A stretch of DNA of 64,000 nucleotides from Ascidia mentula (taxonomy: Eukaryota > Chordata > Ascidiacea > Phlebobranchia > Ascidiidae). How positions within the stretch are numbered: position 1 is the first letter of the stretch; each line of letters starts with the position of its first letter. The stretch spans positions 10,305,001 to 10,369,000 of the forward strand of contig OX387202.1 in the NCBI GenBank assembly GCA_947561715.1. The letters run 5' to 3'. The translations under genes and the position numbers were made by a program. The notes below the pieces were generated by a model. That model was not told where the DNA came from, made no database searches, and saw nothing but the letters and a program-made list of their open reading frames with translations. Of this stretch, positions 16,163 through 57,470 are shown one piece after another.

Positions 16163-16310
16163 AAATCAGTTTTCGCAACAACTTGTTGATTTTCACAGAA
16201 AAATACATCCCTGCAAATTGCGTTTGCACACGATGTAGTCGTACAAACTACCTTCTCTATTTGGCAATAATTGATTCCGACAGCAAAGGCTTTGCTTACC
16301 ACAGGATTGT
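16163..16310 (-). pseudogene. LDLa-GPCR ectodomain fragment (copy E)
   Basis: Reverse complement encodes KAFAVGINYCQIEKVVCTTT, then the CRDVFFCENQQ segment, matching copy A around 1050-1200. It starts directly at the end of minisatellite 2 and ends directly at the CNB-gene exon fragment at 16311, so both borders are abrupt rearrangement junctions. Confidence 0.85.
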
Positions 16311-18527
16311 AATGAACAAATTTTACTTCGTGAAAAAAGGGAGGCTGGTTACGGTAAAGTAAGTGAAATGCATGTGAGGAAACTTATATACCTAAATGAT
16401 TAAATCTTAGAATGTCATTTTTTTGGCCATCTGAAATACTTGGTAAAAATGCTCTTATTGTATGTGTTGTGAACTACTTTTCATGTTTATCTTGTAATTC
16501 TTTACAGTCACGGAGAAAGTCGTGGCAAGACCCCAGTACCAGGTGACATTATTTCAGAACCTCTTTCTTCACCACGGTTTGTTCACTCCTATCTAGCTGA
16601 AGGCATGGAGGTGAGAAATGTGTGGCAAAGTTAATCCAAATAAAATTTTAAAAGACATAAAAGAGTTGATCCACTTAGAAGCTATAAGTGCCCGCCACGA
16701 AATTTATTTTCTCTGTGACAAGTATTTAAACTAAAATTTTAAGTAGGTTTCCAGCCAATTTATGAAAAATAATACATTTTTGGTATAACCGCCAAGTATA
16801 ATTTAAGAGGATCACTGTTTTTAGCACTTTTATAAACAAATTCAACAATTTTTATTGCGCGTTGTTTATTGTATAAGAAAATGAACAAATGATTCGATAA
16901 GCCACTACAGAAAGTAAGGAAATACAAATTTCTCAATAACCCTGTTTACATGGCCAAGTCGACTTGAGCATCAAGTCGACTCGTGACCGGGTCACGTGAT
17001 TTTCAAATTCGACGCGCGAAAACGACGAATTTACATGGGGCTTTTAAGTTAGCTTAAGTTAAGCTGTCTCGGGCTGACAGGCTGTAAATTCAGACTCTGT
17101 ACTAAATAAATTATCAATATTTCTAATCTAAGCATGCAGAGAAAAGTTATTGGCAGTTAGTTTACGCAAATGGTTGCTGCAAATTGGTCCTTGATTATAA
17201 TGTGAGTTTACTTTGCCAGATATAATAGATGATTAAACTAAAAGGCTGCATTTTCCTGGAATGTGTTCACAACTACACCATGGTAAGAGTATTCAAGTGA
17301 AAATTTCATGTTTAGTAGTATTAATTATCTCTGTCCTTCTTCACAGGATCCTTTTCAGAAGCTGTCTTAATCCCGTAATCCCATGTACAATTGAGTGTCA
17401 GAAAAGACTGAATGGAATGTTTCATACCAGCCCAATGTTAATTAATTTGAAACAAATATACAGAAGATGTGATAGTTACATCACATAAACTTGTGTCATG
17501 GCATTCTTGTCATATTTGTTTTATTTTGACAAACAGAAAAGGTTTACATAAGCCTGCTTTTGTATTTTATGGTTGATTGTTGTTCACATAATCCTTGCAT
17601 AATTGAGATGCAGTAGCCTAAATATGAATAAACAACCAGTTTGCATTGACTTGTTATATTATAGCACATCCAGCAGCAAATGAAAACAGTTAACACAAGT
17701 GCATTCTTCTTTCAAGCAAGTGTCAGCATTCCTGCAATGCATTTATTTCCTTCAGGTCTCCAAAATGCAACTTAGGTCCTCAAAACGAATGTTGCTTTTT
17801 TGTATCTTGATGCTTGTACAATTCATTTAACACTTGCGCAGTATTTATCAAAATTAACTCGAGTAAGCACATCCTTCTCGCCCCTGCAGCATAGAGCATA
17901 CTTACGTAGTTGTACTAGAACTAGTTTCTTACTTTTAAGGTTTATTGTAAACAGCAAACCCTCAACGCACAACCTCATAAACAAATTACCTAATCCTAAC
18001 TTCTTCGCGGCACTTGTCGCTACTGGGTTTAAGCTGACTTAATCGCTTAAGCTGTCCCGTAAACCACTCTCCGCGTTAGATCGAAGGCCGAGACGGCTTA
18101 AGACGCTTGCCTTTTTCTCTTCGCCGAAAACGAGAGAGTCGGATCGGCGAGTCAGCTTCGAAGCCGTCTTAAACCGTCATGTAAACGGGGTTAATGTTAC
18201 AAGTGGCTGAAAAGTAGACAAATATGGTAACAATGTTTCTATGAATATTAGAGAGAAGAATATATGGCCAGAAAACGTCACAATATTACTTACAAGTTTA
18301 AATATATTTTTCTTGGATTCAAGGTCGTTCAATGCATTGCAATCCCAATTACCAAGTTCAGTAACAAACAACTTGAGAGCATTACATCATCTGACCTCGA
18401 CGCCACACGAAGCAGAGTTCAAGAAAACTTTGAGGCTCACTTGAACCAAGATTACAACCCAGACGACGACCGAAGCGGAACCAGTGGTTACATCAGTCTC
18501 ACTTCTTCCGAAGGAACAAAATTTTAA
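16311..18527 (+). pseudogene. CNB-tandem gene, 3' fragment (copy 0)
   Basis: Contains the end of exon 9 (16311-16357, FYFVKKGRLVTVK), exon 10 (16508-16610, HGESRGKTPVPGDIISEPL) and exon 11 (18324-18527, ending SLTSSEGTKF and a stop), homologous to the complete copies at 22340 and 31433. Exons 1-8 and the start of exon 9 are absent. Splice borders are kept, and the last intron is enlarged by a TIR transposon. With no start and no first CNB domain it is a duplication remnant. Confidence 0.85.
16940..18190. mobile_element. Non-autonomous TIR transposon in the last intron of CNB copy 0
   Basis: Left end CCCTGTTTACATGGCC and right end (reverse complement CCCCGTTTACATGACGG) are inverted repeats. 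The flanks read ATAA on the left and TTAA on the right. The homologous intron of copy 2 reads straight through (tctcaatgttacaag), which shows the empty site. No transposase ORF is present. TTAA would suggest a piggyBac-like element and TAA a PIF/Harbinger-like one; I cannot decide. Confidence 0.7.
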
Positions 18528-19378: not shown

Positions 19379-22339
19379 TAAAGGAAACCTTCAGCACTAA
19401 CTCAGTGTTCTGTATTACAAAGGCTTGGATTTATATCAAAAATACTTTGTAACATTCTGCTTGCTGACTTCAATGATTACACGTTTACATTATAAGAGTT
19501 GAAAAACTATTGCTAGCTTCGTATATGATCTCTATTATGTGCACGCTTTTGAGTTACATCAGTCACAACACTTTTTAATTCAGTAAAATACTCTTGAGAA
19601 ATGTCATGGTTAAGTCGATGCACTTCACATTCTTTAAATTTGTAAACTCATAATGCATTTCTCTTGTACTAACTGTTACCTAAGGTATAGTTGAATGCAT
19701 ATAATGCTGATCAATGTTTTAAAAGCATAACTTGATTGATAAAGAAACATGTATGTCGAAATATTGTTGGCAAAAAGTGGTTGATGCTTCCTTCGAATTT
19801 TAGTTATTTGAAAAAAGCAGGCGGCATGCGGCAATAAACGTTTTGATCGCTATATTGTCTTATTATAAAACAAAGACAGTGCAAAAATAACTTCCAAAAG
19901 GGCCCCAAACCCAAAGGCGTTGTGTACTATATTCCGTGTAAGGACTGCGGTGGAGCATACATATCTGAAACCGGAAGAGCGTTACAAACTCGGTTAAAAG
20001 AGCATCGCGATGTTGTAGCGAAAAATAGCCAGGGGACAGCACTGGCGAAACACGCTGCCACAATCGGCTACCGAGTTAACTTTAACGACGTCCGAGTCCT
20101 GGAAACACTCCACAATCACAAGAACATCTATTGCGTAAATGACAAAGAGCAATACGTCTACATTCCAGCTGTTTACAACAACTTGTTGTAATTGTTACGC
20201 CCCGTTACAAGCGGTGCCATAGTTTTCGATTCCATTTTTTTGTGTTTTTCGTACGGTTTTAGTGTTTATGCGCTTGATGCATTATTGTTGCTACATAACC
20301 CTGAGAAAGTCTCGCCGGATGGTGAACGAAACGTTGGTTTTAACTGATTATAAATTTACATAGTATATATTTTTGATAAGCAATGTGGAGCCAATAATAT
20401 GAAAGCTGCACTGATAAGACCTTATAGGTCGTCTTTATAACATTTTGTTGTGCGCCACCAGTTTATGGGAAGTTGTGAACCACTGCACTGAGGAAATTAC
20501 CTGACTTAGTAAACGACCAACAAAGGAGTCCTTTATTTAGAATATGATGAAGTTTGTCGTAACAAGTGACCTTTGCTTCTTGCTTTTCTATTGTAGTCAT
20601 GTGTGTTTGTTTGTTCCACAGTTGAGTTCAGTTTGCTGTTTATGGCGCAATTCTTTGAACTCGTTTAAACATTATCTCAATGCCAACATGCCCATGCAGC
20701 CCAGCTTGCTCCATGATAACTGGAATGATAATTTTCCCCATATCGGATGTATACATTTTTGACCAAAACCTATTTTTCTTAATTTACATCATACAACGAT
20801 AGAATTAGCGTGTGTTATATACTGTAACCAAGATGTGATATCAAGATCTTTTCGCCAGGAACTTTTGCTTACTTTAAAGCCAAAATGGGATTTCAACACA
20901 TTTTGCTACCTTTAGCAGTTAGACAATGTAGTGCGCGAAGTATATTGTCGTCGTTAGGAACAAAATCACACTTAACACATAGCTATTGTTACGTCACCAG
21001 AGGTACTTCGCTGAAAATATCCTTCCTCCTACACATTTAACTGTTTTATTGCAGGCAACGAGACAAGTATAAACACCACAGATTGTACAATACGTTGAAT
21101 TTTGTTAACTAATAACATTGATTTTGTGAGCAAGCAAATGCATCGAATTATTCGCACCTAGTGGATCACAGTGCAATAAAAATGCGTCATATTTTATAGC
21201 AACGTAACGGTCGCCATCCAAACGACTTTGGAAATATTTTCAAGTTGGGGAATTCTTTAGAAATCTTCACATACATCAAAAAATTTAAACGCACTATTCC
21301 TCGTATTAAAGGTGCTTTGGACGGGTTTGTTGTCCGGTTTATGTAATGCTGGTTTCAAGTTGATGTTAACTCAGAAAATTCCTGGAGGAAGTGTGTTTCT
21401 TTGGCTGCTATAGTTGCTGAGCTGTGTAAGGAATTTGTGCAAACAACGCTTAAAAACGAGCCACCGATAGGTTTTCCCGGTAACTTTGCTCAACAAAGAA
21501 GTTTGGTGACTCATTGGCATCCGTAAATAAATTACTACTTGATAAATGCGCAAATAATGGAATACCAAACAAGGTGTCATACAGCACACGTACCATTTAT
21601 CAGCTGCTTGGATGTTCGGTTGCACACATATATTTTACTGCACCCTTAAACCCGTGTTGAGAAAAAACTGAAAAAGCCTTATCGAATTTGGGATAAATGA
21701 TTGTAGTGTTGTAAAACTGCGTTGCTTTTGTAAAACGCGTGTTTTCCGTTGTTGTGTTGTTTTTTAGCGATATTAATGATGCCTGCACAGACAGGCGAAA
21801 TATATATGTCGTAAAAACTTGAAACAGACTGACGACTTAGGAATATTTATCATTTTCTGCATTGATCCGTTACTGAGTCTCTGTCAGCCATAAGGACTAC
21901 ACAGGCGATTCATATAAATCAAACTCTGATTTGAGACAGATTTGTTTAATGTTGCAAGCGCGGACCAACGGATTGTTGTATTCGATTAAACATTACCACG
22001 CTGGTCAGCTAACAACCGGACGGTCATATCGACAAAAAAATCTCGTTTAAAATATTTTTTAAATCATTACCTTTCCGCGTATTTCACATTTAATGCAACT
22101 CTCAACTCATCATAATATCCCGTTTTTACAGTTAGCGGTCGTTTGAAAAAAACAGCTGTGACACTTCTGATTGACGAAGTGCGCGTGGTTGTCGGTAATA
22201 CGTTAATCATTGATTGTGCGTAGCCTCGTAAAACTGCTACAAGTTTAGCCACTGCAGTAACTTACACGTTCGATCCACGAACGTAGTGCTTTTTTGCCTG
22301 ATATGCTTCGGTGAAAAATAACAAGGGATTTCTAAGAAA
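19379..22339. repeat. Duplicated intergenic unit, flank A (upstream of CNB copy 1)
   Basis: Matches 26600-31432 (flank B) over most of its length: 19379-19815 matches 26600-27010, and 20436-22339 matches about 29250-31432. The start (19379-19870) also matches the 3' flank of CNB copy 2 (35790-36222). Short ORFs that appear in both flanks, such as one starting MQPNIQAAD on the minus strand, are kept by recent common descent and show no domain. It presumably includes the promoter region of CNB copy 1. Confidence 0.8.
19815..20435 (+). mobile_element. Penelope-like retroelement, 3' fragment (GIY-YIG end), flank A
   Basis: The frame around 19920-20191 encodes VYYIPCKDCGGAYISETGRA followed by RLKEHRD and KHA, the GIY-YIG endonuclease signature of Penelope-like elements. 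The downstream part carries CCTGAGAAAGTCTCGCC and GAACGAAACGTTGG, a hammerhead-like core, and ends near CTGATAAGACCTTATAGGTC. The reverse transcriptase part is not present. Homologous remnants occur at 27030-27640 and 36120-36222, so this insertion is older than the tandem duplications. Confidence 0.75.
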
Positions 22340-25300
22340 ATGAATTTACCTGGACGAGAAACTTCATTTTGCCAACATCAGAGACCAGCTGATAACTACA
22401 ACATTGATCAAGTCGAGGTAAAAACTTAAATTGGATTTCTGCCCACTTCAAAACCTGTGAAAGTATTTCGTCTTGAAAACAAACTGTTGTTGGACTAAGG
22501 TGTAGCTATCTATCATGTTGAAAGTAACCTCATTGGCTACATTTTTGAAGGGCGTCGATTCGTGCCTGTATCAGACTTTCTCGCTTAATCCATTGCGCGC
22601 AAGTTTAAAGCAATTTAGTTCGGCCCCGTGGTAACAAAGGTTAACAAAATACCCTAATTGATTGGACAACCAAAACAAGTGCCTCAAAAAAGTGATAAAC
22701 TAATATATAAACTGATAAACATTGTAGCTTAATGTTAAATGAACCTATTTTCGCACTATTGTTTAACAGAGCCTTACTTTCATCGAAGATTTTCATCAAA
22801 ATAACCACTACCACGTTCCTAGCAAGGAAGTGGAAGGTTTGTGTCTGAAGTTTCGTTTTCTTAATCGCTCGGGTATAACTTGTTCACTGTTTCTAGCGCC
22901 CACCCCAAGAATATCGTTTAAATCCAACGAATCTCCCACCGATTCTGAACCTGACAACGCATCTCGGCGTCTGGAAGATCTAAATGATGACCTGGCTTCA
23001 ATTTCCAATGAAAATGAACCTGGCAGTTCAAGGCAGATCAGCAGACAAGAAGCGGACCAAAGAATTCAAAATCAGCTACAACAAAACCAGAAACCGGATA
23101 AGTGAATATATGGCCTTACTAAAATCTCTTTATGAAAAATTTGTTGCCGACTTTAATTTTCAGGTCGACTGGCAGTAAATTCAGCCGTAGACTTAAGAGC
23201 ATGTTAAAAAAATCGAAAAATGTTGCTGGACAAACAAATATAACTGAAGATATCGATGATGAAATCGAGGTGGGTAACAGAAAATTTTTTTTTTGATAAA
23301 ATACACAGGGGCAATAACGTCATTTTCACTAATTGAAACCAAGCAACTAGCCCCACGTGATGTGGCACATTGTGGCCCATACTATTCTAGGGAGCCTACG
23401 AAAAACATTGTATCCCTTGAAACTGTTAAATATATATCGATCTTACAAAATGTGCCGTGAAATCTGCGCCGTACAATGATGTTCTGAAATGCCGTGGTTT
23501 GCTTATTTTGAATAACTTAGGATTATATTTGTAAACGAACACGAGAAGGTTGATTAGAAGGCATTAGAAATGCTGTCGTTAGTGAAACAAGTTGAGAGTC
23601 ATTAAACTTAACTGCTGTGTTGAAGCACTATAGGAAAAATAGTGCTTCAACACAGCAGTTAAGTTTAATGACTCTCAACCTCTATGACAAGCTCTTAGCA
23701 AGTAACAGTTGTTGGCTTCCAGGTACCATGTCCCGACTGCACGTACCTCCAAGAAAGGAATAAGGAATTAGAAGATGAAAATAAGAAACTGAAATCCCAA
23801 ATTCGATACCATGAACTTACACCAAATGGAAGTTCAAGCGCTTCCAAACAAAAGAGGTAGATCGCGATTGGGTTTAAAATAGCGTTCTGTAGAGTCATGT
23901 ACTTTGTAACCTTGATCGAAAAAAGGAATATAAACCTCCAAGGGCCTACTGGCCCGGATATCCTGGGTTCCAAATCTAGTGTGATTGAAATAAAAGAAAC
24001 AAATAAAAAGCAGTCATGCATGAAGAGTAGCATTGATATCTGGAACTCATCATGTTTGGAGTCATTTTTGTGAAATAAATAATTTTTTTTAATTCCATAT
24101 AGTTTTGCATATGGTTGGCCCTTTCAGAAAAAAATGACGTTTTTCAGAATTCAAAACACAACAAAGTCAACAATTATGACACCACAAACCCGGGAAGACA
24201 TCATTCGGGCTCTTCCCAATGAATTAGTTCGGATTTTTACCTTCGAAAAAATGGAACATCTTGTGGAGAAAATGAAGTGCATGTCAACGTGGAAAGGTAG
24301 CTTATACATATAGGCTATACATAGTAGTGTTTCATGTAATGGCATGATTGGCAGGATCGTGGGGCGATCACAGCAATCGTATAGAGATCATTAGGTTTAA
24401 AGGCTTTGCAGCCCAGGCATTGCAGCCTGACGATATTTGAAAATCAAGCTCCGGTGAGGTTTAAACTCACAACCCTGGGCTAACCAGGCTCAATGCTCTG
24501 CCAATCATGCCATTGTATGAAACATCACTGCGTTGTCCGATTATAGTGGTAGAGATCCCCTACGCACACGTAAAGGTTGCCTGACAAGTTGCGCGTTGGT
24601 CACAATATACTCCGTGAAACATCTGAGCTTCTGCAGCTCAGTTGGTAGAGCGTTGGGCCTGTTAGCACGGGGTCGTGCGTTTAAACTTCACCGGGATGAT
24701 GATTTTTAAAATCGCGTTCCGACTTGTCAGGTAAAGTGGCTGATCCAGCTAGGCTGCGATGCCTGCAAACCTACATATATGCCATTGCTTTTTTGTTTGA
24801 TTTAGAATTTGTGCAATCCATACATTGAAACCTACTGTAAAGCAAATATAATATGTGTACGTAATATTTCCAAATGATTTTCTCAGGGTATCGGCTCTTT
24901 GAACAAGAAAAGCTTTGCCAGCGTGTCTACGTCATCGAAACCGGGATCTTCCGTTTTAGCAAAGCAAATCAATCTTCTTTTGCAAATAAAAGCTCGCTTC
25001 GGGAGCCAGACGCCACAGCCTGGACATTCCTTGGATGGGACGAATTGTTCTTCGAGTCAGTACATGTAACAACATGCACGTGTTTAGAACCAGGAAAGGT
25101 GCGAAATATGCTCGTTATTTGCGATTATACTATTGGTGCTGTTTTGCATTTGCCATACTTGCACATTTTTATAAGCGTTTTAGAGATTTAGATATATAGT
25201 CCATTAAGCCACATTTGTTATATGTCGTCGTAGTACATGTGCAGTGCAGTAAAGTATTCATTTCAACTATCTTTCATTGCAAATAGCTGTGGTACTTTAC

Positions 25301-26595
25301 ACGACCTGTCTTTCAACAAACTGTGGGAAAAATATCACCGAAGCGACTTCGTGTGACTTTTGACTATTTAAGTCAAGTGTTACCTTCTTATTTAGAGAAA
25401 CGGCGAGTTCATCTGACCAAAAACAGCGAGGTAATATGTTGAAATGTATTTGTATTGTTTCACCCTCGAAAGTACATTAACCTACAGGGGCGATGCCCAC
25501 AACTTTCGAAATGTAATTTATTTCATTTTATTAAAACAATAAAGTATTCGCTGACACAAGGAAACGCTAATAATCAGTGCCAGCAAAGTGTGACTCAATA
25601 GTGTATACGCATAATAACGAAAATATATTGGTCTCAACTGCAAGGTAGTTTTGCCTTGTCAAGGGTGCAATAGACATTAAACATTGTTACAAGAAAAATC
25701 TTTCAGAATAGTTAACTTTGGTTAAATATTAATCTCTTTCAGGTTGTCCTTTGTTCGCCTGGGGAGTTCCTTCTGCGCTCCGGTGACGTGTTCAACAAAT
25801 TTTACTTCGTGAAAAAAGGGAGGCTGGTTACAGTAAAGTAAGTGAAATGCTTTTATAACCCAAATTAATAAATCTTAGAATGTCATTTTATGGCCATCTA
25901 AAACATTTACTACAATTCTTTCTGGTGTAAGTCCGGGTTGCGATCTTCTTTTCATGTTTGTTTTGTTATTTTTTACAGTCACGGAGAAAGTCGTGGCAAG
26001 ACCCTGGTACCAGGTGACGTCATTTCACAACCTCTTTCCACACCACGATTTGTTCACTCGTATCTAGCTGAGGGCACGGAGGTGAGAAACGTGTAGCCAA
26101 ATTTATGGTATAGCCGCCAAGTTTATTTTCAGAGAAAGACTTTCCTAAGTACATTTATAAACAAATTCAACAATTTTCATTGCGCGTTTTATATTGCATA
26201 CGAAAACTGACAAATTATCCGATCAGCCATTATACAGCACCACTAAGGAAATATAAATATCTTAATGTTAGTATTTTGAAACGTCTTTGAAAAGAAAATA
26301 AATTTGGTAGCAATGTTTCCAAGAATATTCGAAAAAATCAAGGCCAAATATTACTTACAAGTTTAAATATATTGCCTTCAAGGTCGTTCAATGCATTGCC
26401 ATCCCTATTACCAAGTTCAGCGACAAACAACGTCAGAGTATTACATCATCTGACCTCGACGCCACACGAAGCAGAGTTCAAGAAAACTTTGAGGCTCACT
26501 TGAACCAAGATTACAACCCAGACGACGACCGAAGCGGAACCAGTGGTTACGTTAGTCTGACTTCTTCCGAAGAAACAAACTTTCCACAAGTCTAA
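22340..26595 (+). CDS. Tandem cyclic-nucleotide-binding-domain protein, copy 1 (kinase-less, PKG-regulatory-like)
   Basis: Eleven exons: 22340-22417, 22770-22872, 22897-23101, 23164-23269, 23723-23856, 24148-24296, 24887-25098, 25287-25430, 25743-25837, 25979-26081, 26383-26595. All phases agree and give 513 aa. Order: start MNLPGRETS; acidic Ser-rich stretch (about 66-110); basic SRRLKSMLKKSKN; short coiled coil (LQERNKELEDENKKLKSQ, about 173-190); CNB-A (about 240-345, with RVYVIETGIFRF, FLGWDELFFE and WYFTRPVFQ); CNB-B (about 360-460, with SPGEFLLRSGDVFNKFYFVK and VPGDVISQPLSTPRF); acidic tail ending in SLTSSEETNFPQV. The order coiled coil, CNB-A, CNB-B is that of the PKG regulatory half, but no kinase follows. 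The CNB-A cassette lacks the usual PR-A Arg and CNB-B lacks the GE-AL part, so cyclic nucleotide binding is doubtful. AATAAA overlaps the stop codon. Function is not known to me. Confidence 0.8.
23591..23679. repeat. Perfect 41-bp inverted repeat with 7-bp loop in intron 4 of CNB copy 1
   Basis: The arm beginning GTTGAGAGTCATTAAAC (23591-23631) is followed by AGGAAAA and its exact 41-bp reverse complement (23639-23679). CNB copy 2 has only the left arm at the same site (around 32947), so the right arm was copied in inverted orientation after the duplication. Confidence 0.95.
24313..24771. mobile_element. Composite tRNA-headed SINE/fold-back insertion in intron 6 of CNB copy 1
   Basis: Flanked by an 8-bp duplication TACATATA (24305-24312 and 24772-24779) and absent from the same intron of copy 2. 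It holds a plus-strand tRNA-like head (24630-24700: GCAGCTCAGTTGGTAGAGCG as A box, GTCGTGCGTTTAAACTTC as B box) and a minus-strand one (24440-24505). The outer ends are inverted (AGGTTTAAAGGCTTTGCAGCC against GGCTGCGATGCCTGCAAACCT). An inner hairpin pairs about 24322-24350 with 24500-24531. It resembles the tRNA-derived composite elements known from ascidian genomes. Confidence 0.7.
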
Positions 26596-27029
26596 TAAAA
26601 CTGAAGGAAACCTTTGGCACTAACTCAGTGTTCTGTATTACAAACGCTTGGATTCATATCAAAAACGCATTGTAATATTCTGCTGGCTGACTTTAATGAT
26701 TACACGTTTACATTATAAGCGTTGAAAAACTATTGCTAGCTTCGTATATGATCTCTATTATGTGCACGATTAAGAATTACTTCAGCACCAACACTTAATT
26801 CAATAAAATACACCTGCGAAATGTCGTGGAAATTTGCCGATGCACTTCAGATTCTTTAAATTTGTAAACTCATAATGCATTTCTCTTGTACCAACCGTTA
26901 CCCACTTGAATGTATTATATGCTGATCAATGTTTTACAGCATACCTTGATTAATAAAGGAAAATGTATATCGAAATATTGTTGGCAAAACGTGGTTAATG
27001 CTTCCCTCGATTTTTTAGTTATTTGAAAA

Positions 27030-27640
27030 CAGCAGGCGGCGTGCGGCGATAAACGTTTTGATCGCTATATTGTCTCATTATAGCAACAAAGTCAGTGCAA
27101 AAAAAACTTCCAAAAGGGGCCCAAACCCAAAGGCGTACTGAATTATATTCCGTGTAAGGACTGCGATGGAGCACACATAGGTGAAACCGGAAGAGCGTTA
27201 CAAACACGGTTAAAACAGCATCGCCAAGATGTTGCAGCGAAGAATGGCCAGAGGACAGCGATAGCGAAACACACTGCCACACTCGGCCACCGAGTAAACT
27301 TTAACGAGGCCCGAGTACTAGAAATGGAGGAGGACAACACAAAACGTTTATTCCTGGAAACACTCCACATTCATTAGAACAACCATTGTGTTAATGACAA
27401 GGAGCAATTCGTCTACTTTTGAGCTGTTTGCAACAACTTATTGTAATTGTTACGCCCTGCTACACAACTGGTCACTTGACAATATAAGCGGATTCCCTTT
27501 TTCTTGTATTTTTCTTACGTTTTACTTGCGTTTTTAGTGTTTATATGCGCTTGATGCATTTCAGTTGCTACATAACTCCGAGGAAGTCTAGCTGGATGGT
27601 GGACGAAACATTGGTTACAATAAACACTTTCATAACGCAG
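27030..27640 (+). mobile_element. Penelope-like retroelement, 3' fragment (GIY-YIG end), flank B
   Basis: Homologous to 19815-20435: the YIPCKDC, ETGRA and KTHCHTR/RVNFN-type segments of the GIY-YIG region can be aligned by eye, followed by GAGGAAGTCTAGCTGGATGG and GACGAAACATTGG. It is more decayed than its sister in flank A and is not coding over its length. Confidence 0.7.
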
Positions 27641-28786
27641 TTTTATTGCATTTCTTCTTAAGGTCTTCTCCCATGACACCAGCGAATGACTACAAAAACA
27701 AGCAAGTGTTAAAAATGGAATAAATGAAAATAGAGTCACCTGTTGGAAATACGTTCAAACCATTCGAAATGGGCATGGGTCGACAACCTCATGGACGCGA
27801 CGTGGAACAAATTATGTAAAAATGTCAATGAGTACGCGTGCTAACAATTTTCTGAGTGCAATGCGTACAGAAATTTTGACCTTTTTTTGTCAAACACTGC
27901 TTCTCGATGCTCAATTGTATGATTGATAGGGCATTTGCAATTTTAAAGGGTACATTTTTTATTCTTGGACATGTAAGCACTTTTATCCTTTTTGTCTGGA
28001 ACGGAAAAAAACTGAGAAAATCATCAGTGTAGTGGAGGTAAGTACATTCCAAATTCGCAAATTACCCCAGACTTTTCGCGCATGGCGAGGGTTACCGACC
28101 CCTGATCTAATAAATGCCACCAAGCATTTTTGACAATGCCGATAATCGTAACCATCGGAACACTGTTTGCTGCATAAGGCTGGATTGCCTTGGGGGATTC
28201 TATCTGTTATCACTTGGATTTGGTGCAATAACACCACCCTGCGGATGCACAAAAAAGCAACGACAGGCAGCGACTTTAACTAAAGGTGGCTGTACACAGG
28301 ATCAGTTTCGGTCCGTTTTCGTCCGTATGCGTATATGTGTAAAAATTCGGTCCGACGCCTTTCGGTAGCGCTTGTTTCCCATCTTCGACAACTTTTATTC
28401 GATATTTTGACAGTTTGTCTTGAACAATGGTTAGATTTTGGCGTTAACGTATTACCCAAAAACGCGACACTAATTAGTTTAAAGTTTTTTTGCATATGTG
28501 TTTGAAAAATCCCTGAAAAGGTCTTCACCAAACCAAATCCGAGACTTAAAAGATTTAGAAACATTACCTAGTTGCACAAAAGCATACTTGTTTGCTCAAT
28601 GGCTGCAACTCGTACGGAGTCCCAGGCATTGGAACTTTTTGACTTATTGGGTTGCATTTGTAAACAAATACGCTAGACCAGAGGGTTGGTTTATATGTTG
28701 TTACATAGGGCGTCACCAGTTTCCTTTCAGACTTTGACGGATTTCATTTTAAAACAAACTAAACTTATCTTTTTGAAACGTACTGC
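27641..28786. other. Intergenic, no gene recognised
   Basis: Sequence specific to flank B. It has several 70-95 codon ORFs on both strands, none with a domain, signal peptide or exon border, and no repeat with clear ends. Confidence 0.45.
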
Positions 28787-29132
28787 TCTTCCGGCATAAA
28801 ATTAACGTTATATTGTTACGAGGTTTCATCTGCCATTCAGCGTGACTTTATCAGGGTTTGGTACCGCAATTTCAACGTAAACCACACTAAAACATTCAGA
28901 GGCACAAAAAAGAACAAGGAGACACGTTGACACCGCTTATCAGATCACGTGGCAAAAGCAAAACACCAAACACTGCAGGAGGCGATACAGTTACAACAAG
29001 TTGTCGTAAACTGCCGGAAAGTATACACCCTGAGACAATGTCATTTGCGGTGACAAACCCTGATAAAGTCTCGCTGAATGGCAGACGAAACGTCGTAACA
29101 ATATAACGTTAATTTTATGCTAGAAGAGCAGT
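28787..29132. repeat. Fold-back element with about 80-bp inverted ends and hammerhead-like cores
   Basis: The left end TACTGCTCTTCCGGCATAAA continues through a region that reappears in reverse orientation at 29042-29132 (CCTGATAAAGTCTCGCTGAA, then GACGAAACGTCG, ending GAAGAGCAGTA). The two inverted copies belong to the same terminal-sequence family as 5360-5450 and 60117-60198. It is absent from flank A. Confidence 0.75.
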
Positions 29133-31432
29133 ATATTTTAAATTGCAATATGCCTGGCAGCAACAGGAGTGGTGTAAAATTATGTTAGTACAAAAGCGAC
29201 AACGTCCCTGAAAAACGGCCAATACTATAAATATCTTTCGTTTTTTAAACGCGTCTTTATAACATTTTGTTGTGCGCCACCGGTTCATGGGAAGTTGTGA
29301 ACCATGCACTGCACTGAGGAAATTACCTGAATTAGTAAACAACCAACAAAGGAGTCCTTTATTTAGAATGTGATGAAGTTAGTCGTAACAAGTGACCTTT
29401 GCCTCTTACTTTTCTATTGTAGTCATGTGTGTTTGTTTGTTCCACAGTTGAGTTCAGTTTGCTGTTTATGGCGCAATTCTTTGAACTCGTTTAAACATTA
29501 TCTCAATGCCAACATGCCCATGCAGCCCAGCTTGCGCCATGATAACTGGAATGATATTTTCGGATGTATACATTTTGACCAAAACCTATTTTTCTTAATT
29601 TACATTATACAACGATAAAATTATCGTTTGTTATATACTATAACCAAGATGTGATATCAAGATCTTTTCGCCAGGAACTTTTGCTTGCTTTAAAGCCAAA
29701 ATGGGATTTCAACACATTTTGCCACCTTTAGCAGTTAGACAATGTAGTGCGCGATGTATATTGTCGTCGTTAGGAACAAACTCACACTTAACACATAGCT
29801 ATTGTTACGTCACCAGAGGTACTTAACTGAAAATATCCTTCCTCCCACACAATTAACAGCTTTATTGCAGGCAGCGAGACAAGTATAAACACCACAGATT
29901 GTACAATACGTTGAATTTTGTTAACTATTAACGTTGATTTTGTGAGCAAGCAAATGCATCGAATTATTCGCACCTAGTGGTTAACAGTGCAATAAAAATG
30001 CGTCATATTTTATAGTAACGTAACGGTCGGCCACCCATTCCCTGTATTAAAGGTGCTTTAGACGTGTTTGTTGTCCATGGGTTTATGTAATGCTGGTTTA
30101 AAGTAAATATTAGATGTTAACTCAGATTTCTGGTATAAGTGTGTTTCTTTGGCTGCTATAGTTACTCAGCGGTGTAAGGAATTTGTGCAACCAACACTTA
30201 AAAACGAGCCACCGATGGGTTTTCCCGCTAACATTGCTCAACAAACATGTTTGGTGACGCATTGGCATCCGTAAATAGATTACTGCTTTACAAACGCGCA
30301 AATAATGGAATACCAAACAAGGTGTCACATAGCACACGTACCATGTATCAGCTGCTTGGATGTTTGGTTGCACACATCATTTTTACAGCACCCTTAAACT
30401 CGTGTTGAGAAAAAACTAAAAAAGCCTTATCGAATTTGGGATAAATGATTGTAGTGTTGTAAAATTGCGTTACTTTTGAACCACGCGCGTCTTCCTTGGC
30501 CATGACTATTTGCTACGTTGCCAAAGCATAATGTCTGTATCTGTATACGAGTGCTAGGAAATATATGCTGGTGAACTTTTGTATGACAATTCGTAATATT
30601 GACATTGGATTGAATGTTAGGTATTTGTTTGTAAATGTGTCGACTCTAGGTGACCTGTTGTCCCTTATATATAGGTTAAACATGACTTCCCACCGTGCTA
30701 CGGGTGTTACTAATGCGATATTCAGACACATGTATTGTAGTAACGTTGATGATTCTGTGGTTGACCATAGCTATGTTTCTTTGTTTAAGGCAGAAGAAAT
30801 AGTCATTAAAATGTGAAAACCAATTTCATAGAAAAACAACGTTTTGAAAGAGAATGTGCAGCACCTGGATAATATATATCAAAAAGTTTCAATGCTCTGT
30901 CATGGGATTTGAAAAATAAACGTTTGGTCCGATACCATGGTAAAGGTTTGTGCTGTTTACTTTTAATTACGCAAACAAAAGTTAGACTTTATCTCGGAAT
31001 TTCATTCCGTTGTTTGACGTTCTACTTGAGACAGATTTATTTAATGTTGCAAGCGCGGACCAAAGGATTGTTGTATTCGATTAAACATTACCATGCTGGT
31101 CAGCTAACAACCGGACGGTCATATCGACAAAAAAATATCGTTTAAAATATTTTTTAATTCACTACCTTTCCGCGTATTTCACATTTAATGCAACTCGTAA
31201 CTCATCATAATATCTCGATTTTACAGTTAGCGGTCGTTTGAAAAAACATCTGTGACACGTTTGATTGACGAAGTGCGCGTGGTTGTTGGTAATACGTTAA
31301 TCATTGATTGTGCGTCGCCCGTAAAATTGCTACAAGTTTAACCACTGCAGTAACTTACACGTTCGATCGACGAACGTAGTGTTTTTTTGTCTGATATGCT
31401 TCAATGAAAAATAATGTGGGACTTCTGAAAAA

Positions 31433-34400
31433 ATGAATTTACCTGAACGAGAAACTTCATTTTACCAACATCAGAGACCAGCTGATAACTACAACATCGA
31501 TCAAGTCGAGGTAAAAACGTAAATTGGATTTCTGCCCACTTCAAAACATGTGAAAGTATTTCGTCTTAAAAAAACTGTTGTTGAACTAAGGTGTATCTAT
31601 GTGTTGTTAAAACTTAAAAGTAACCTTATTGGCTATGTTTGAAGGGCGTCGGTGCGTGCTCAGACGTTCTCGCAAAAGTCATTGCGCGCAATTTAGTTCG
31701 GCCCTGTGGTAACAAAGGTTCACCCGAATTGATTAGAGGACATAAACAAGTATCTCAAAAAAGTGATAAACTAATATATAAACAGATAAACATTGTAGCT
31801 TAATGTTAAATGAATCTATTTTCGCACGATCTTATTTTCGTGGATGTCCCAAGTTTCATTGCTATGTTTTCCCAGATCATCAATTTCACATTTGTATAAA
31901 AAGTTGTTGCCAAAATGCGACTAAGCATTTGGTTAGGGAAAGGGTGCGTGCTTTAAAATCTAAACTGCAATCTATTTAGCACGCAACTCATAACTAAACT
32001 TTTATACATGGTTTTTAGCATTCTTTTTTGCCTTGTAGTACTATGTAACCTTTTACCCCTTTTTTATCAATTACACAAATTCTTATTGTTTAACAGAATC
32101 TTACTTTCATCGAAGAACAAAATAACCACTACCACGTTTCTAGCAATGAAGTGGAAGGTTTGTGCCTAAAGTTTCGTTTTCCGAATCGCTCGGGCTGTAA
32201 TTTGTTTACTGCTGCACGTTGACCTAAAATTGATTTGTAAAGTTAAAATAAGCTAAATTGTTCCATTCATTTCGGTTTCTAGCGCCCACCCCAAGAATAT
32301 CGTTTAAATCCAACGAATCTCCCACCGATTCTGAACCTGACAACGTATCTCGGCGTCTGGAAGATCTAAATGATGACCTGGCTTCAATTTCCAATGAAAA
32401 TGAACCTGGCAGTTCAAGGCAGATCAGCAGACAAGAAGCGGACCAAAGAATTCAAAATCAGCCACAACGAAACCAGAAACCTGAAAAGTGAATATTCCCT
32501 TACTAAAATCCTTTATGAAAAATTTGTTGCCGACTTTAATTTTCAGGTCGACTGGCAATAAATTCAGCCGTAGATTCAAGAGCATGTGGAAGAAATCGAA
32601 AAATGTTGCTGGACAAACAAATATAACTGAAGATATCGATGAGGAAATCGAGGTGGGTAACAGAAAATTTTTGACAACATACACAGGTGTAATAACGTCA
32701 TTTTGACCAATTGGAAGCAGGAAACTGCCCCTTGAGCCTACGAACAACACTTCCCTAGAAACTGTTCAATTTATGTCGCAGGGGCTGGGAGCTATAATTT
32801 TATCTTACAAAAGGAGTGGTTAAATCTGCCCTGTAGAATGATGTTCTGAAATGTCGTGCTTTGCTTATTTTGATAACCTTGAAGTTCTAAACTAACATAA
32901 GAAGGTTGATCAGAAGGCATTGGAAAATTTGTCGTTATTGAAGCAATTTAAGGGTCATTAAACTTAACTGCTGTGTTGAACCACCATCGGACAAATATGC
33001 GTAAACGTAACTGTTTGATTAAAAAATGTAGCATGTTTCTTTCTATGACAAACTCTTGGTGATTGACTGTTGTTGGCTTCTAGGTACCATGTCCCGATTG
33101 TACGTACCTCCAAGACAAATTGGTTAGTGTTGAAGCAAGGAATAAGGAATTACAAGATGAAATAAAGAAACTAAAATCCCAACTTCTTTACCATGAACTT
33201 ACACCAAATGGAAGATCCAGCGCTTCTCAACAAAAGAGGTAGATTCCGATTGGGTTTAACATAACGTTCGGTAGAGTCATGTAGTTTGTAAGTAAAAAAA
33301 GAATCATACTGGTCAGGATATCCTGGGTTCGAAATCTGGTTTGATTACTAAAAATTAAACAAACAAATAAAAAAGACAGTCATTTATGAAGAGTATAGCA
33401 TTCATATCTTGAATTCGTCATTTTGGGTGTTATCTTTGAGAAATAAATATTTTCAAAGTCCAAATTTTTTTCAACATGGTGGACTTGGCTAACATTTTTC
33501 AGAATTCAAAACACAACAATGTCAACAATTATGACCCCACAAACCCGGGAAAACATCATTCGGGCCCTACCCAATGAGTTTGTTCGTATTTTTACCTTCG
33601 AGAAAATGGCAGATCTGGTGGATAAAATGAAGTGCATGCAAACCAGAAAAGGTGCTTAAAAGTTTTTTGTTTGATTTACAATTTGCGCAAACAATACATT
33701 GAAACCTCTTGTGAAGCAAATATAATATGTGTACGTAATACGTCTAAATAATGTTCTCAGGGTATCGGCTCTTTGAGCAGGGAAAGCCTTGCCAGCGAGT
33801 GTTCGTCATCGAAACCGGGCTTTTTCGATTTGGTAAATCAAATCAATCATCTTTTGCAAATGAAAGCTCGTTCCAGGAGCCATATGCTAGCACAGCCTGG
33901 ACGTTTCTAGGATGGGACGAATTGTTCTTCGAGTCAGTACATGTAACGACATGTACATGTTCAGAATCAGGAAAGGTGCGCCGTACATTAAGCCATATTA
34001 GTTGTAAAGTATTCATTACAACTATCTTTCATTGCATATAGCTATGGTACTTCACACGAACTGACTTTCAACAAACTGTGGGAAAAATAACACCGAAGCG
34101 ACTTCGTGTGACTTTTGACTATTTAAGTCAAGTGTTTCCTTCTTATTCAGAGAAACGGCGAGTTCATCTGACCAAAAACAGCGAGGTAATATGTTGCAAT
34201 GTATTTATATTGTTTCTTCCTCCACAGTACCTACAATGGCGAAGCCCACAACTTTTGAAGTGTAATTTATATCATTTCATTTAAACAATAAAGTATCCGC
34301 TGGCTCGTAAAGCAACTTATGAACAGTACCAGCAAAGTGTGAGTCATGGTGAAGGCTAGACACACTATAACGAGGTTATATTGGTTTTAACTGCAAGGTA

Positions 34401-35763
34401 CTTTTGCCTTGTAAAAGGTGCGATATAGACATTGAGCATTGTTATTTGTGCAGTGACATGGGTGGAAAAGACCTTTCAGGAGCTTCATCGTTGGTTAAAA
34501 ATTAATCTCTTTCAGATTGTCCTTTGCCCGCCTGGAAAATTTCTACTGCGCTCCGGTGACGTGATGAACAAATTTTACTTTGTGAAAAAAGGGAGGCTGG
34601 TTACGGTAAAGTAAGTGAAATGTATGTGAGGTAACTTATATATCTAAATGATTAAAGCAACGAATGTAATTCTTTGGCTATCTGAAATATTTACTAGAAA
34701 TGTTTTATTGTATGTCCAGATTGTGATCTTTTCATGTGTATCCTGTTATTTTTGCAGTCACGGGGAAAGTCGTGGTAAGACCCTGGTACCAGGTGACGTC
34801 ATTTCACAACCCCTTTCTTCACCACGATTTGTTCACTCCTACTTAGCTGAGGGCATGGAGGTGAGAAACGTGTAGCAAAGTTAACCCAAATAAAATTTTG
34901 AAAGACATACTTGTTTAAACATTATCTCAACGCCAACATGCCCATGCAGCCTAGCTTGCGCCATGATAACCGGAAATAATAATTTTTCCACATATCGGAT
35001 GTATACTTTTTTGACAAAACCTTTTTTTCCTAATATTCATCAAGTCTATGTTACTATATGACTGTCGGGAGATTCCCATACATGTTTTTCGGAGTTCTAT
35101 AAGTGTCTCCCACGAAATTGATTTTCTCTGTAACAAATATTCAAACTAGAATTTTAAGTAGGTATTCAGCCAATTAAGAAAAATAATACATTTTTGGTAT
35201 AAAGTTTAATTTAGGAGGATGACTGTTCTAAGTACTTTTTTTTAACAAATTCAACAATTTTCATTGCGCGTTGTTTTTTACTTAAGAAAATCCGATTAGT
35301 CACTACAGCATCAGTAAGGAAATAGAAATGTCTCAATGTTACAAGTGGTTCGTAACGTTTTTTCAAAGAAGACAAATATGATAACAACGTTTCTATGAAT
35401 ATTAGAGAGAAAAAATTAAGGCCAAACAACGTCACAATATGATAAGTAAAGTGGAGTTGCACTGATGAGACCTTGTAGGTCGAAACAGTGACCATCTGTC
35501 TGCAGCTTACACAACGTCACAATATTACTTACAAGTTTAATTTGTTTTTTGCATTCAAGGTCGTTCAATGCATTGCAATCCCTATTACCAAGTTCAGTAA
35601 CAATCAACTTAAGAGCATCACGTCATCCGACCTCGACGCCACACGAAGCAGAGTTCAAGAAAACTTTGAGGCTCACTTGAACCAAGATTACAATCCAGAC
35701 GACGACCGAAGCGGAACCAGTGGTTACGTCAGTCTGACGTCTTCCGAAGGAACAAATTTCTAA
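31433..35763 (+). CDS. Tandem cyclic-nucleotide-binding-domain protein, copy 2 (kinase-less, PKG-regulatory-like)
   Basis: Eleven exons: 31433-31510, 32097-32196, 32283-32487, 32547-32652, 33084-33238, 33503-33651, 33761-33975, 34042-34185, 34516-34610, 34758-34860, 35560-35763, giving 517 aa. Same architecture as copy 1. Differences: exon 2 lost the copy-1 donor and uses a GTAATT donor three bases further on, still in frame. Exon 5 keeps one extra heptad (DKLVSVE) in the coiled coil, which copy 1 lacks. Exon 7 has one extra codon. CNB-A reads YVIET-like VFVIETGLFRFGK and FLGWDELFFE; CNB-B reads PPGKFLLRSGDVMNKFYFVK. The tail ends SLTSSEGTNF. Both copies are open over all exons, and the indels seen in coding exons are multiples of three, so both are probably under selection. 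The role is unknown. It is probably intracellular, since no signal peptide or membrane segment is seen. Confidence 0.8.
34913..35030 (+). repeat. Ectopic copy of intergenic flank DNA inside intron 10 of CNB copy 2
   Basis: GTTTAAACATTATCTCAACG and the following 100 bp match flank A at about 20666-20785 and flank B at about 29487-29600. Copy 0 has no such segment at the same point, so this piece of flank was pasted into the intron after the duplications. Confidence 0.8.
35430..35516 (+). mobile_element. 85-bp retroelement end with hammerhead-like core, intron 10 of CNB copy 2
   Basis: Inserted between two copies of ACGTCACAATAT. Copy 0 shows the empty site at about 18269-18290. The insert contains CACTGATGAGACCT, a TGT loop, AGGTCGAAACAGTG and ends CTGTCTGCAGCTTAC. 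A 5-bp stem II flanked by CTGATGA and GAAA is the hammerhead arrangement. The same end is found at 44340 and, inverted, at 54657. Confidence 0.75.
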
Positions 35764-36450: not shown

Positions 36451-39400
36451 ATGATTAAAATACTTAATTTGATATTTCTTTCCGTTTGTGTGGTTGAAGG
36501 TCTTTGTCCAGTGGAAAATGCAAGTTTGGCCCCTATTCCATACATACGTAAGTTTTATTTTATTAACATTGCATGTGTATTTTCGCTTGGATGAAAGATA
36601 AGTGCTAAGTGCTAATCATACAATGGCCCTCAAACCAACTGGTGCGTCTCAAGGCTCTTTGGGAGCGCCATAATGCAACAATGTGTGACCGCACCTTTTG
36701 GAGTCTAATTACAAGCATAATCATTTGGAAGTGGTTGATGTTGTTCACAGTGAGAGCAATCTCTTGACAATATATATCTCATGGCGGTCAAACAAATTTG
36801 CCGCAACAGCTAACTAGTTTGAAAAGCAATGAAGTAAAATAACAAAGTAAAAACATATTACCCGTTATAAAATCAAACCAATTAGTCAACGCGAGGTTTG
36901 CCGATTGTCATTTGAAAATGTAGGTATCAAACCACGTAGGCCTTTTTACGGTTTAATCTCATCCATTTCACTTGTTGTTAAATTTGTTATCTACCCATAC
37001 AAAGAATTCCAACAAAATTGTTAATGGCAATTTAGTTCGATAATTAGCTTTTCTTATTTTCCATACATAAATAATAAGTTTAATAATTCTTTTCGAAGGG
37101 CCAATGAACCTGACAACTTGCGTCCCACCATATTATGACTTCAACTGCGTGTGTCCTTCCGGTATGTTCGAATGCGCCTGCCATAAAATAGGAAGTTGTA
37201 AACCAAATGTACAGGGATGCATAAACATGATAAGCTTATACAACGGATGGAACAACTGCGGAGACTGGAGTGACGAAGTGGCCTCTGTGTGTCCTCCAAG
37301 ATTCTTTCAATGTCACTGTTACAATACAACATGCAAGGACGGGGGAAGCTGTGTTTTGAGTTTGCTTAAATGTGATTTCGTCAACGATTGTCCCGACGGA
37401 AGTGATGAGTTGGATTGCACATGTCCAGCCGATAAGTTTGAGTGTCCATGCTACAAAACAGGAAATTGCACCAAATTAGGAAGCGGCGGTGGATTTGGAT
37501 TAGGTCTTGGTTCCATTCCTTCATATGGTTGCATAAGCAAGTCGGAAGTTTGTGACGGTTATAACAATTGCGGTGACTGGTATGACGAAATCAACTGCAC
37601 ATGTCCATTGAACACATATGAGTGTGCGTGTTACCAAACAAAAAACTGTCCTTACAGCTATGGCTGCACCAACGTCCTGGCTCGTTGCAACGGATTTGAT
37701 AATTGCGGGGATTGGAGTGATGAAATCAATTGTACGTCTTGCCCTGCGCACTTGTTCGAGTGTCCGTGTTACAAGAGAAGGAATTGTACATATGGTCGCG
37801 GTTGCTTGCAACCATTCTTTGTTTGTGACGGTTATAACACGTGTGGCGACTGGAGTGATGAAGCAAACTGCACATGTCCTACTAATACTTTTGAATGCTC
37901 CTGTTACAAAACCAAAAACTGTACAAAATCAGTGCGTGCTTGTATAGCGCTTGCATATCAATGCGACGGCTTGAACACATGTGGAGATTGGAGTGATGAG
38001 GTTAATTGCACCTGTCCAGTCGATAAGTTCGAGTGCGCATGTGTCGGCACTAGACAATGTGTTGGAATAAACTTGAACTGCATTGATCATTCGTTGCTAT
38101 CCAACGGATATTCCGACTGTATTGATGGCAGCGACGAAACGTATCATACATGCAACTGTTCCGGTATGTCAGCAAAATGTCCAAATGGGTCTATATATAA
38201 CTTTACCAGATCAGAAAATTGCATTCCCCACCAGTGGGTGGGTGATAACATCACAGACTGCATTGATGGAAGTGATAATGTTTGTTCTTCTAGTTCCTTT
38301 TTATGTCTATCATGTCATTCGATTTCCATTAGCTGCAAAAGAGAAACGGAAGCCAGACGATTAATTAACACAAACGCATCAATAACCTGCAACCCTGTGA
38401 AAAGTAAGACTTGTGCTTCCGATATCAATTACTGCCAAGTAGAGAAAGTAGTTTGTACGACTACATCGTGTGAATACGCATTTTGCAGAGATGTGTTTTT
38501 CTGTGAAAATCAACAACTTGTTGCAAAAACAGAGTTTTGTGATGGATTTAGCGACCCATTGCACAGTTGCAAGGACAAAAGCGGCGAAATTCAACATAGA
38601 TTTGGGTTTAAATGTTCTGGAGTGACACGGAAAGGAGTTTGTGTTTTACCTCAGTCCAACGTCTACGATTCTGTGGCTCAATGTTCGGACCATTCTGACC
38701 TTTGTTTTGTCAATGGCCAGTTTCGTTGCTTTCAATGTTTGGACAGGAAGCTTATAATTTCAGACAAACAGGTATGTGACGGTGTAGTGGACTGCTTTGA
38801 CATGTCGGACGAATGTTTGTGCGCTGATCAAACGTTGTGTCGGGAAGTTAGAGGAAGTTGTCCTGTGAATGAAGTCTTGTGTAATAACACCTCAACTTGT
38901 TTAAGTCAGGTAGTTGCACTGTGTAATACAAGTGTTCAGTGTTACAATCAAACTAATACAAAACACTGTACCAATGAGAAAGGAATAAAACCGTATCTCT
39001 GTCCAGCAAACGTAAAGATAAATCCAAGCAGAACTGGTAACCGCAACCTCAGACACAAATGTACAAAACTGGAGTATTTCATGAGCAAGTATCCAACTGT
39101 TCCACATGACCAGTCATTGCAATACCTGTCGTTATTTTGCAGCGGAAAAATTCATACAGGATATGGTATTTCAGCCGAGCTTTACTGTCCAAACTTCGTT
39201 AGTTGTTTCAACAAGGGTGAGATTAATATCGCCCGCAATCGCGTATACGACGGAAAAATCGACTGCGACGACAAATCGGATGAGTTTCTCGAAAAATGTA
39301 AAACTACTCGCTATTACTGCAAGAGCAAAGGTAGGATTTCAATTGCAAGAAAACATATTTGCGATGGCATAATTGATTGCGACGATGAAACAGACGAAAG

Positions 39401-57230: not shown

Positions 57231-57470
57231 AGGATTCACAGGCTTCGCAGCCAAGGCATTGAGCGCTTGCGCACCAGTGTACCTTGGCCACGATATACCC
57301 TGTGAAGCCACTGAACTCCTGTAGCTCAGTTGGTAGAGCGTTGGGCCTGGTTAGCCCAGGGTCGCGAGTTCAAACCTCACCGGGAGCTTGATTTTTCAAA
57401 TCTAGCTCCGACTTGTCGGGAAAAGTGGCTGATCCAGCTTGGCTGCGAAGCCTATGAACCTTCTGAACTT
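57231..57470 (+). mobile_element. tRNA-headed element with inverted termini (best-preserved copy)
   Basis: Left end GATTCACAGGCTTCGCAGCCAA and right end (reverse complement GGTTCATAGGCTTCGCAGCCAA) are inverted repeats. Inside, 57314-57388 folds as a tRNA: acceptor-like CTCCTGT/ACCGGGAG, A box TAGCTCAGTTGGTAGAGC, anticodon stem GGGC/GCCC with loop CTGGTTA (anticodon GGT would be Thr) and B box GAGTTCAAACC. I read it as a SINE-like mobile element and not a host tRNA gene, because it sits inside the same inverted ends as 24313 and 55893. Confidence 0.7.

Follow-up and report, generated by a model that had tools for sequence, protein, structure and literature searches.

The DNA analysed here is a 64 kb stretch (the window) of a sea-squirt-like genome, and it carries two complete genes on the + strand, designated A and B:

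22340..26598, + strand: gene A, 11 exons, 501 aa (splice sites, phases, two PF00027 stretches, purifying selection)
22340-22417, 22770-22836, 22897-23101, 23164-23269, 23723-23856, 24148-24296, + strand: gene A exons 1-6
24887-25098, 25287-25430, 25743-25837, 25979-26081, 26383-26598 with stop, + strand: gene A exons 7-11
31433..35763 including stop, + strand: gene B, 11 exons, 504 aa (splice sites, phases, two PF00027 stretches)
31433-31510, 32097-32157, 32283-32487, 32547-32652, 33084-33238, 33503-33651, + strand: gene B exons 1-6
33761-33975, 34042-34185, 34516-34610, 34758-34860, 35560-35763 with stop, + strand: gene B exons 7-11

When the exons and phases were rebuilt, each gene proved to have ten GT-AG introns and no internal stop, which bore out the original prediction of two complete 11-exon genes ending in an acidic Ser-rich tail. 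The lengths first given, 513 and 517 aa, were not reproduced. In gene A, the coding sequence ends at 26595 and is followed by the stop codon, to 26598. Exon 2 has a weak donor (GTTTGT), and the boundaries of exons 2 and 3 may therefore be placed differently. Each of the proteins A and B contains two PF00027 stretches (Pfam; E 3.6e-11 and 1.1e-11, over the cut-off), and both are arranged as a short zipper-like segment, CNB-A, CNB-B and an acidic tail:

23723..23856, + strand: gene A exon 5, short zipper-like segment (heptad register read by eye)
33084..33238, + strand: gene B exon 5, zipper-like segment of about four heptads (heptad a/d pattern)
25027..25074, + strand: gene A CNB-A phosphate-binding cassette FLGWDELFFESVHVTT (alignment; amino acids invariant in five distinct copies)
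33904..33951, + strand: gene B CNB-A cassette, identical in protein sequence to that of A (gene model, alignment)
26010..26063, + strand: gene A CNB-B cassette PGDVISQPLSTPRFVHSY, non-canonical, shortened (alignment)
34789..34842, + strand: gene B CNB-B cassette (alignment)
26383..26598, + strand: gene A exon 11, encoding the last part of CNB-B, a helix and the acidic Ser-rich tail
35560..35763, + strand: gene B exon 11, as gene A exon 11

A and B had been described as a tandem pair. The pair is real, but the description undercounts the family, as the assembly holds six open copies including A and B, plus fragments. The four extra open copies lie on the same contig as A and B, and one of them is identical to A in its coding sequence. 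Copy A' matches A at 99.986% identity over 7001 bases, and copy B' matches B at 96.5% over 6.8 kb. A' and B' may be extra loci or may reflect assembly or haplotype redundancy, and B', one of the five distinct copies compared, may be allelic instead of a separate locus. The window itself includes a broken copy, which is limited on its 5' side by a repeat boundary (16309):

16309..18527, + strand: third, broken copy, consisting of part of exon 9, exon 10 (16508-16610) and exon 11 (18324-18527) (tblastn and self-comparison; exon ends read by eye)

Between A and B, dN is 0.054-0.057 and dS is 0.20-0.24. Over the five distinct copies, omega is 0.349 (lnL -3226.96, compared with -3254.02 for omega 1), and this codon-based comparison shows that selection on the copies is purifying.

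The nearest relative of A and B that we found in the same genome is a complete kinase gene on another contig:

C71:12304915-12296803, - strand: gene K, 16 exons, 966 aa, two CNBs and a PKG-type kinase

The Pkinase domain of K is complete (Pfam, E 1.1e-66, profile 2-263 of 263), and its best PDB match is PKG1. A genome search with PF00027 returned 21 matches at E 0.001, with neither A/B nor K among them, and a genome search with protein B recovered both A/B and K. In BLASTP against six subject sequences, five of which were joined by hand from exon pieces, K was the best match of A (E 6e-27 over 264 residues), followed by PKG_C72 (5.6e-10) and RII (8.4e-10). K and A/B also cluster together in a nine-row tree, with support of 100/99. 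Moreover, five introns in the CNB tandem are common to K and A/B in both place and phase (K/G, phase 1; PG/LW, phase 0; the start of CNB-B, phase 0; TV/H, phase 2; E/VVQC, phase 0). For four of these five places, five further PKG/PKA-R genes from this genome were examined, and the shared intron is absent from these CNB kinase genes at all four: both b1 junctions are uninterrupted in five of the five genes and both b7/b8 test peptides in four, while in the fifth (RII) the exact b7/b8 place is uninterrupted and an intron lies a few residues further on. A and B therefore almost certainly share descent with K, and the predicted likeness to the regulatory half of PKG reflects real homology. Since K is the closest match found and the four shared introns examined are absent from the five further genes, A and B are regulatory-half paralogues of a divergent PKG, and they most likely belong to a small family, expanded locally, of paralogues that have only the regulatory half of the PKG-type kinase K. 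A profile built from A, B, the inverted A-type copy and K found the PKG1 regulatory domain as its best PDB match (E 2.4e-18), with PKA RII-beta next (2.3e-15); this match is not independent, because K is itself a row of the profile. Neither Pfam nor the PDB gave a better-fitting CNB family.

The predicted lack of a kinase was upheld. Pfam gave no kinase model in A or B up to E 1, and a downstream kinase exon was sought in the window and not found, as the kinase domain of K produced chance-level matches only (tblastn, best E 3.6). Against the five C70 loci, its best match (E 0.79) falls in an intron of the inverted A-type copy and was taken as chance. Exon 11 of A and B is homologous to the linker between CNB-B and the kinase of K up to SGY-S, where a stop follows, and the two proteins thus appear to be cut off at the start of the linker to the kinase.

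The pockets of both CNB domains depart from the usual pattern. The canonical cassette motif is described as FGE..R (PMC2246266), and Glu183 and Arg192 of PKG I are described as holding the ribose and the phosphate (PMC3080414). In the alignment, A and B carry LGWDELFFESVHV and VISQPLSTPRFVH instead of FGE..R cassettes. CNB-A had been thought to keep the Glu and to lack the usual Arg. Only the latter holds in register: the G-W-D-E-L of A and B aligns gaplessly to G-E-L-A-I, which puts a Trp where the ribose-Glu would be and a Glu two residues further on, and a His occupies the Arg position. In PKA-RI numbering, the changes are Glu200 to Trp, Ala202 to Glu, Arg209 to His and Ala210 to Val. CNB-A of K keeps both Glu and Arg in an FGE..R-type cassette, where A and B have Trp and His, and its positions 202 and 210 are already Asp and Val. 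In CNB-B, the departure from the canonical form is common to K, A and B. The claim that CNB-B keeps an Arg is uncertain, for the Arg of STPRFVHS is shifted by one column relative to the canonical Arg, and an Arg is missing there in K. These alignments suggest that A and B very probably lack canonical cyclic-nucleotide binding. Given the complete kinase, the FGE..R-type CNB-A and the non-canonical CNB-B of K, the most economical order of events would be that CNB-B was lost first, and CNB-A, the kinase and the pseudosubstrate later, on the A/B line. Across the five distinct copies, the 23 codons of the CNB-A cassette region include no amino-acid-variable codon and six silent-variable ones. Equally invariant random codon sets occurred in 64 of 20000 draws; among contiguous 23-codon windows, 9 of 474 were free of amino-acid change, so the cassette is not unique in this respect.

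What the original prediction called a coiled coil is a short run of heptads, read by pattern: in exon 5 of gene B, the a/d positions are C L L V N L I L L. Exon 5 of A is exactly 7 aa shorter, and the heptad register is therefore kept between the two. The zipper region of A and B is not clearly alignable with the coiled-coil region of K, which speaks against heterodimers with K. The pseudosubstrate-like RRGV exon of K (VIQRRGVWEPSRK) has no counterpart in the A and B gene models, and its peptide found no match up to E 10 in the window (tblastn). Ahead of CNB-A, where an autoinhibitory pseudosubstrate would be expected, A and B have only QKRIQN nearby. The KR dipeptide of this sequence lies close to the expected pseudosubstrate position, and QKRIQN may be a weak inhibitory sequence.

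Among known systems, the regulatory half of PKG/PRKG shares with A and B the order of zipper-like segment, CNB-A and CNB-B, and its PKG1 regulatory domain is the best PDB match of their tandem CNB profile, in which K is included. A and B differ from PKG by the missing kinase, the lack of a recognisable pseudosubstrate and the non-canonical cassettes in both CNBs. PKA RI/RII is likewise a separate double-CNB protein without a kinase. However, A and B have no RIIa docking domain (Pfam up to E 1), the RRxA/S inhibitor site was not seen by eye, and their introns and best match indicate descent from a PKG-type gene. CRIS, for which the name CNBD2 is also in use, provides another comparison. It too is a CNB protein without a kinase (PMC3854790), but it is called unrelated to other family members in the same source, a description that sets it apart from A and B, which are clearly PKG-derived. 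Among the titles and abstract openings that searches of an open-licence library brought up, none describes the family of A and B, which is weak evidence of absence.

Taken as a whole, the best explanation, a PKG-derived, cyclic-nucleotide-blind, zipper-dimerised adaptor or decoy, stands in our view at about an even chance. A and B would dimerise through the exon-5 zipper, would have no canonical binding of cAMP or cGMP and, free of a kinase, would serve as adaptors or decoys by occupying the docking partners of K- or PKG-type kinases. A point against this reading is that PKG I-beta is reported to be inhibited mainly in cis (PMC9417419), so that a kinase-less partner would inhibit little. The adaptor or decoy role taken by itself is proposed tentatively, and the roles offered in the original prediction (decoy, dimer partner, ligand-independent scaffold) keep the standing of suggestions. 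Loss of the kinase and of the usual pocket may make A and B signal-blind decoys or sensors of something else.

A second function to be weighed is that of cyclic-nucleotide-blind, never-releasing inhibitors acting in trans on the catalytic domains of K or PKG. The double CNB with an N-terminal dimer region in PKG/PKA-R order and the position of QKRIQN are compatible with it; on the other hand, the absence of the K pseudosubstrate-like exon from both the models and the window makes direct trans-inhibition of the PKA-R kind less likely, and we regard this function as unlikely. It is a little less likely still that CNB-A has been re-tooled for another ligand. Its Glu at Ala202, polar His at Arg209 and Val at Ala210 fall on the three sites (E311/T318/V319) that distinguish trypanosomatid PKA-R, which binds purine nucleosides, from cAMP-binding PKA-R; nucleoside-bound structures of the former are described (PMC10959531). 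The invariance of the cassette in amino acids despite six silent changes also fits, as do the Asp at 202 and Val at 210 already present in K. However, the trypanosomatid sites described use a Glu at the Glu200 position as well (E309, site A; PMC10959531), where A and B have Trp, so that A and B agree at three of the four sites and fall outside the nucleoside-binding CNBs as described there; moreover, their CNB-B shows none of the trypanosomatid-type changes. The lineage is unrelated, and the likeness would thus be convergence at best. The narrower version, in which CNB-A exchanged cyclic nucleotides for a neutral, nucleoside-like ligand with Trp replacing the ribose-Glu, is very improbable.

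Two further readings concern the genes themselves. Decaying pseudogenes would be consistent with the loss of the kinase and the canonical pockets, with the broken fragment at 16309-18527, and with the inverted A-type copy, which has AA in place of AG where the exon-3 acceptor is expected. In five of the six copies, nevertheless, all ten introns are GT-AG and the frame is open; the sixth stays open through in-frame AG acceptors that lie 12 to 39 bases upstream, and setting omega to 1 costs 27 log-likelihood units. Selection and the open frames, with one shifted acceptor in the inverted A-type copy, disfavour decay, and its likelihood is very small indeed. Complete kinases, with catalytic exons that were overlooked or that are joined on by splicing from a distant downstream site, would agree with the PKG domain order; the exon 11 stop, however, falls inside the segment homologous to the K linker, and no credible kinase-like DNA occurs in the window, which extends 28 kb past B, leaving this the least probable of all.

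If regulatory-half-only descent from K is correct, kinase-less PKG duplicates under selection would indicate that the regulatory half of PKG can live alone, an arrangement that PKA uses and that would here have arisen secondarily, when the kinase was lost. With its conserved but non-canonical cassette, CNB-A would offer a ready binding assay for the function that such domains take on when they no longer read cyclic nucleotides.

In the models reconstructed from the sequence, genes A and B have 11 exons apiece, all GT-AG-spliced, and encode proteins of 501 aa and 504 aa that are 88.5% identical. Pfam identified two cyclic-nucleotide-binding (CNB) stretches in each protein, and no kinase domain in either. 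The rebuilt models and Pfam agree with the original prediction of two complete, kinase-less 11-exon genes with two CNBs. The proposed likeness to the PKG regulatory half also held. In a phmmer search of the PDB with protein B, PKG entries (E 7.5e-5) ranked above PKA regulatory subunits, whose best match had E 0.0025. Since three defining features of PKG were tested and none was found, A and B are not PKGs by function; they are PKG-type regulatory halves existing without a kinase. No published description of such a family was found in the literature searched.

The glycoside hydrolase family 6 domain, which among animals is not known outside tunicates, has two matches (E 9.2e-6 and E 1.1e-4), in keeping with the tunicate origin assumed in the original prediction. 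Protein B as query against the same genome (195.8 Mb) returned 67 exon matches, of which 66 lie on C70, the contig whose positions 10305001-10369000 make up the window. Together with the window genes, these yielded six copies, each with 11 exons and an open frame.

Copies of the kinase-less double-CNB genes
22340-26598 and 31433-35763, plus strand: A and B, in the window (rebuilt gene models)
About 126.6 kb downstream of the window pair: A' and B' (own-genome search with protein B)
About 430 kb upstream, minus strand: an A-type copy (L020) and a B-type copy (own-genome search with protein B)

All ten introns are GT-AG in five of the six copies. In L020, the inverted A-type copy, AA occupies the expected exon-3 acceptor; AG acceptors that keep the frame occur 12 to 39 bases upstream of it, so that the copy's exon-3 start is uncertain by some residues. 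CNB-gene fragments were also found at 16309-18527 of the window and, as its twin, at C70:10445904-10447931. The coding sequence of A' is identical to that of A, with 99.986% identity of the two copies over 7001 bases; for B' and B, identity over 6.8 kb is 96.5%. A, B and both inverted copies are distinct from one another; the rest may be real loci or assembly redundancy. The second block, C70:10445904-10467482, corresponds to 15093-36756 of the window, about 125 kb apart, with 99.98% identity in the stretches compared around the fragment and gene A, and only 96.5% over gene B. Either a recent duplication accompanied by conversion or a mixture of haplotypes in the assembly would account for it.

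The sole match off C70 was weak (E 0.088, C71:12300803-12300976), with kinase exons just downstream on the same strand. Reading this region yielded gene K, with 966 aa in 16 exons, one GC donor and the remaining introns GT-AG; its last exon was read from sequence, and a further exon may be missed. K has a long, Ser-rich N-terminus, a segment that resembles a coiled coil by eye and an exon carrying VIQRRGVWEPSRK, similar by eye to a PKG/PKA-R pseudosubstrate. Its two CNB stretches match PF00027 at E 4.2e-18, and its kinase is complete (PF00069, E 1.1e-66). In the PDB, a 459-residue piece of K matched full-length PKG1-beta best (E 1.2e-73), and the kinase alone scored 196 bits with PKG1 and at most 159 with PKA-C-named entries among the best 60 of 1230 matches. 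The genome has several PKG-type kinases; a tandem of two canonical-looking PKG genes lies at C73:7692000-7709000 (L031, L032), and a third PKG on C72.

Several observations connect A and B with K. BLASTP from A reached K at E 6e-27; of the genome's five other CNB kinase genes, the best-scoring gave 5.6e-10. In a tree of nine regulatory halves, K and A/B group together (support 100/99), and the stem leading to A/B is long, at 2.0 changes per column. A, B and K share five introns of the CNB tandem, alike in position and phase. Four of them were examined in the other five kinase genes as well: all five read through both b1 junctions, and four read through both b7/b8 test peptides; RII, the fifth, has no intron at the exact place but one a few residues beyond. 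Finally, exon 11 of A/B stops where the homologous K exon (ENF..H......SGY.S) continues into the kinase linker. The BLASTP rank, tree support, common introns and exon-11 homology thus indicate that A/B share descent with K.

The nucleotide pockets were compared in a gap-free register extending from the cassette roughly to the conserved LW. The CNB-A cassette is FGELAILYNCKRTASV in the genome's own PKG, FGETDIFYHTRRVSSC in K and LGWDELFFESVHVTTC in A/B. K keeps the Glu that holds the ribose and the Arg that holds the phosphate, roles described in passages of PMC3080414 and PMC2246266; A/B have Trp and His there. Of the predicted retention of the Glu and loss of the Arg, only the loss stands. 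A passage of PMC2246266 names a CNB family, PDZ_GEF, in which Met or His stands in for the Arg. In PKA-RI numbering, the CNB-A of A/B also carries Glu202 and Val210, besides a polar residue at 209. Passages of PMC10959531 describe how trypanosomatid PKA-R, a nucleoside binder, was made to bind cyclic nucleotides by mutation at these three sites; that protein, however, also uses Glu where A/B have Trp, and A/B match it at three of four positions. The CNB-B cassette (FGERALMTEDKRAANV in the own PKG, IGDVTDSSTHVGNY in K, ISQPLSTPRFVHSY in A/B) is shortened and non-canonical in both K and A/B. The simplest order is that CNB-B changed before the K-A/B split, and CNB-A after it.

The copies are under constraint. 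Between A and B, dN is 0.054-0.057 and dS 0.20-0.24. For the five distinct copies (A', identical to A, left out), omega was 0.349 with kappa 2.7; among seven kappa values tried, the best fit with omega fixed at 1 was worse by 27 log-likelihood units. Within the 23-codon region of the CNB-A cassette, the five copies differ silently at six codons and in amino acid at none, as compared with 107 amino-acid-variable and 72 silent-only among all 496 codons; a lack of amino-acid change was seen in 64 of 20000 random 23-codon draws and in 9/474 contiguous windows. The tail is conserved too (3/40 codons amino-acid-variable), and the CNB-B cassette varies at 3/24.

Our analyses demonstrate the descent, losses and constraint of A/B; as to their role, we infer that they may form zipper dimers that would no longer respond to cyclic nucleotides and would act as an adaptor or decoy. 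The zipper-like segment of B-type copies has seven residues that A-type copies lack, with the heptad register kept (A register by eye). Inhibition of kinases in trans is disfavoured, as A/B are without the pseudosubstrate-like exon, and a passage of PMC9417419 describes PKG I-beta inhibition as mainly in cis. A/B may heterodimerise with K, although their coiled-coil regions align poorly.

The window contains other features.

Other features of the window
12028-14436 and 10637-12283, minus strand, and 37071-40673, plus strand: long open frames encoding repeats of the LDL-receptor class A type (PF00057)
48293-50359, plus strand: NLR-like gene, 688-aa open frame with NACHT (E 6.8e-16) and leucine-rich repeats
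57315-57388, plus strand: tRNA gene, single match (Rfam, 45 bits)

The LDL-receptor class A copies lie on either side of the CNB cluster in opposite orientation and are 83% identical over 3.5 kb; the plus copy is a single 1200-aa frame, and the minus copy is split over several frames. The two frames scanned have 5 and 6 PF00057 stretches, followed by a part resembling a 7-TM receptor by eye. Repeated pieces downstream of the broken CNB copy (19847-20191) and of gene A (27084-27377) carry, by eye, a motif like that of GIY-YIG endonucleases, which are found in mobile elements; Pfam on one of the two gave no match. These pieces may mark duplication units. Tandem arrays of a roughly 77-base unit occupy 3749-4649 and 15606-16156, the latter ending near the broken copy. 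Within an intron of gene A, 24596-24764 is 83.5% similar to the tRNA stretch, and may therefore be a tRNA-derived repeat.
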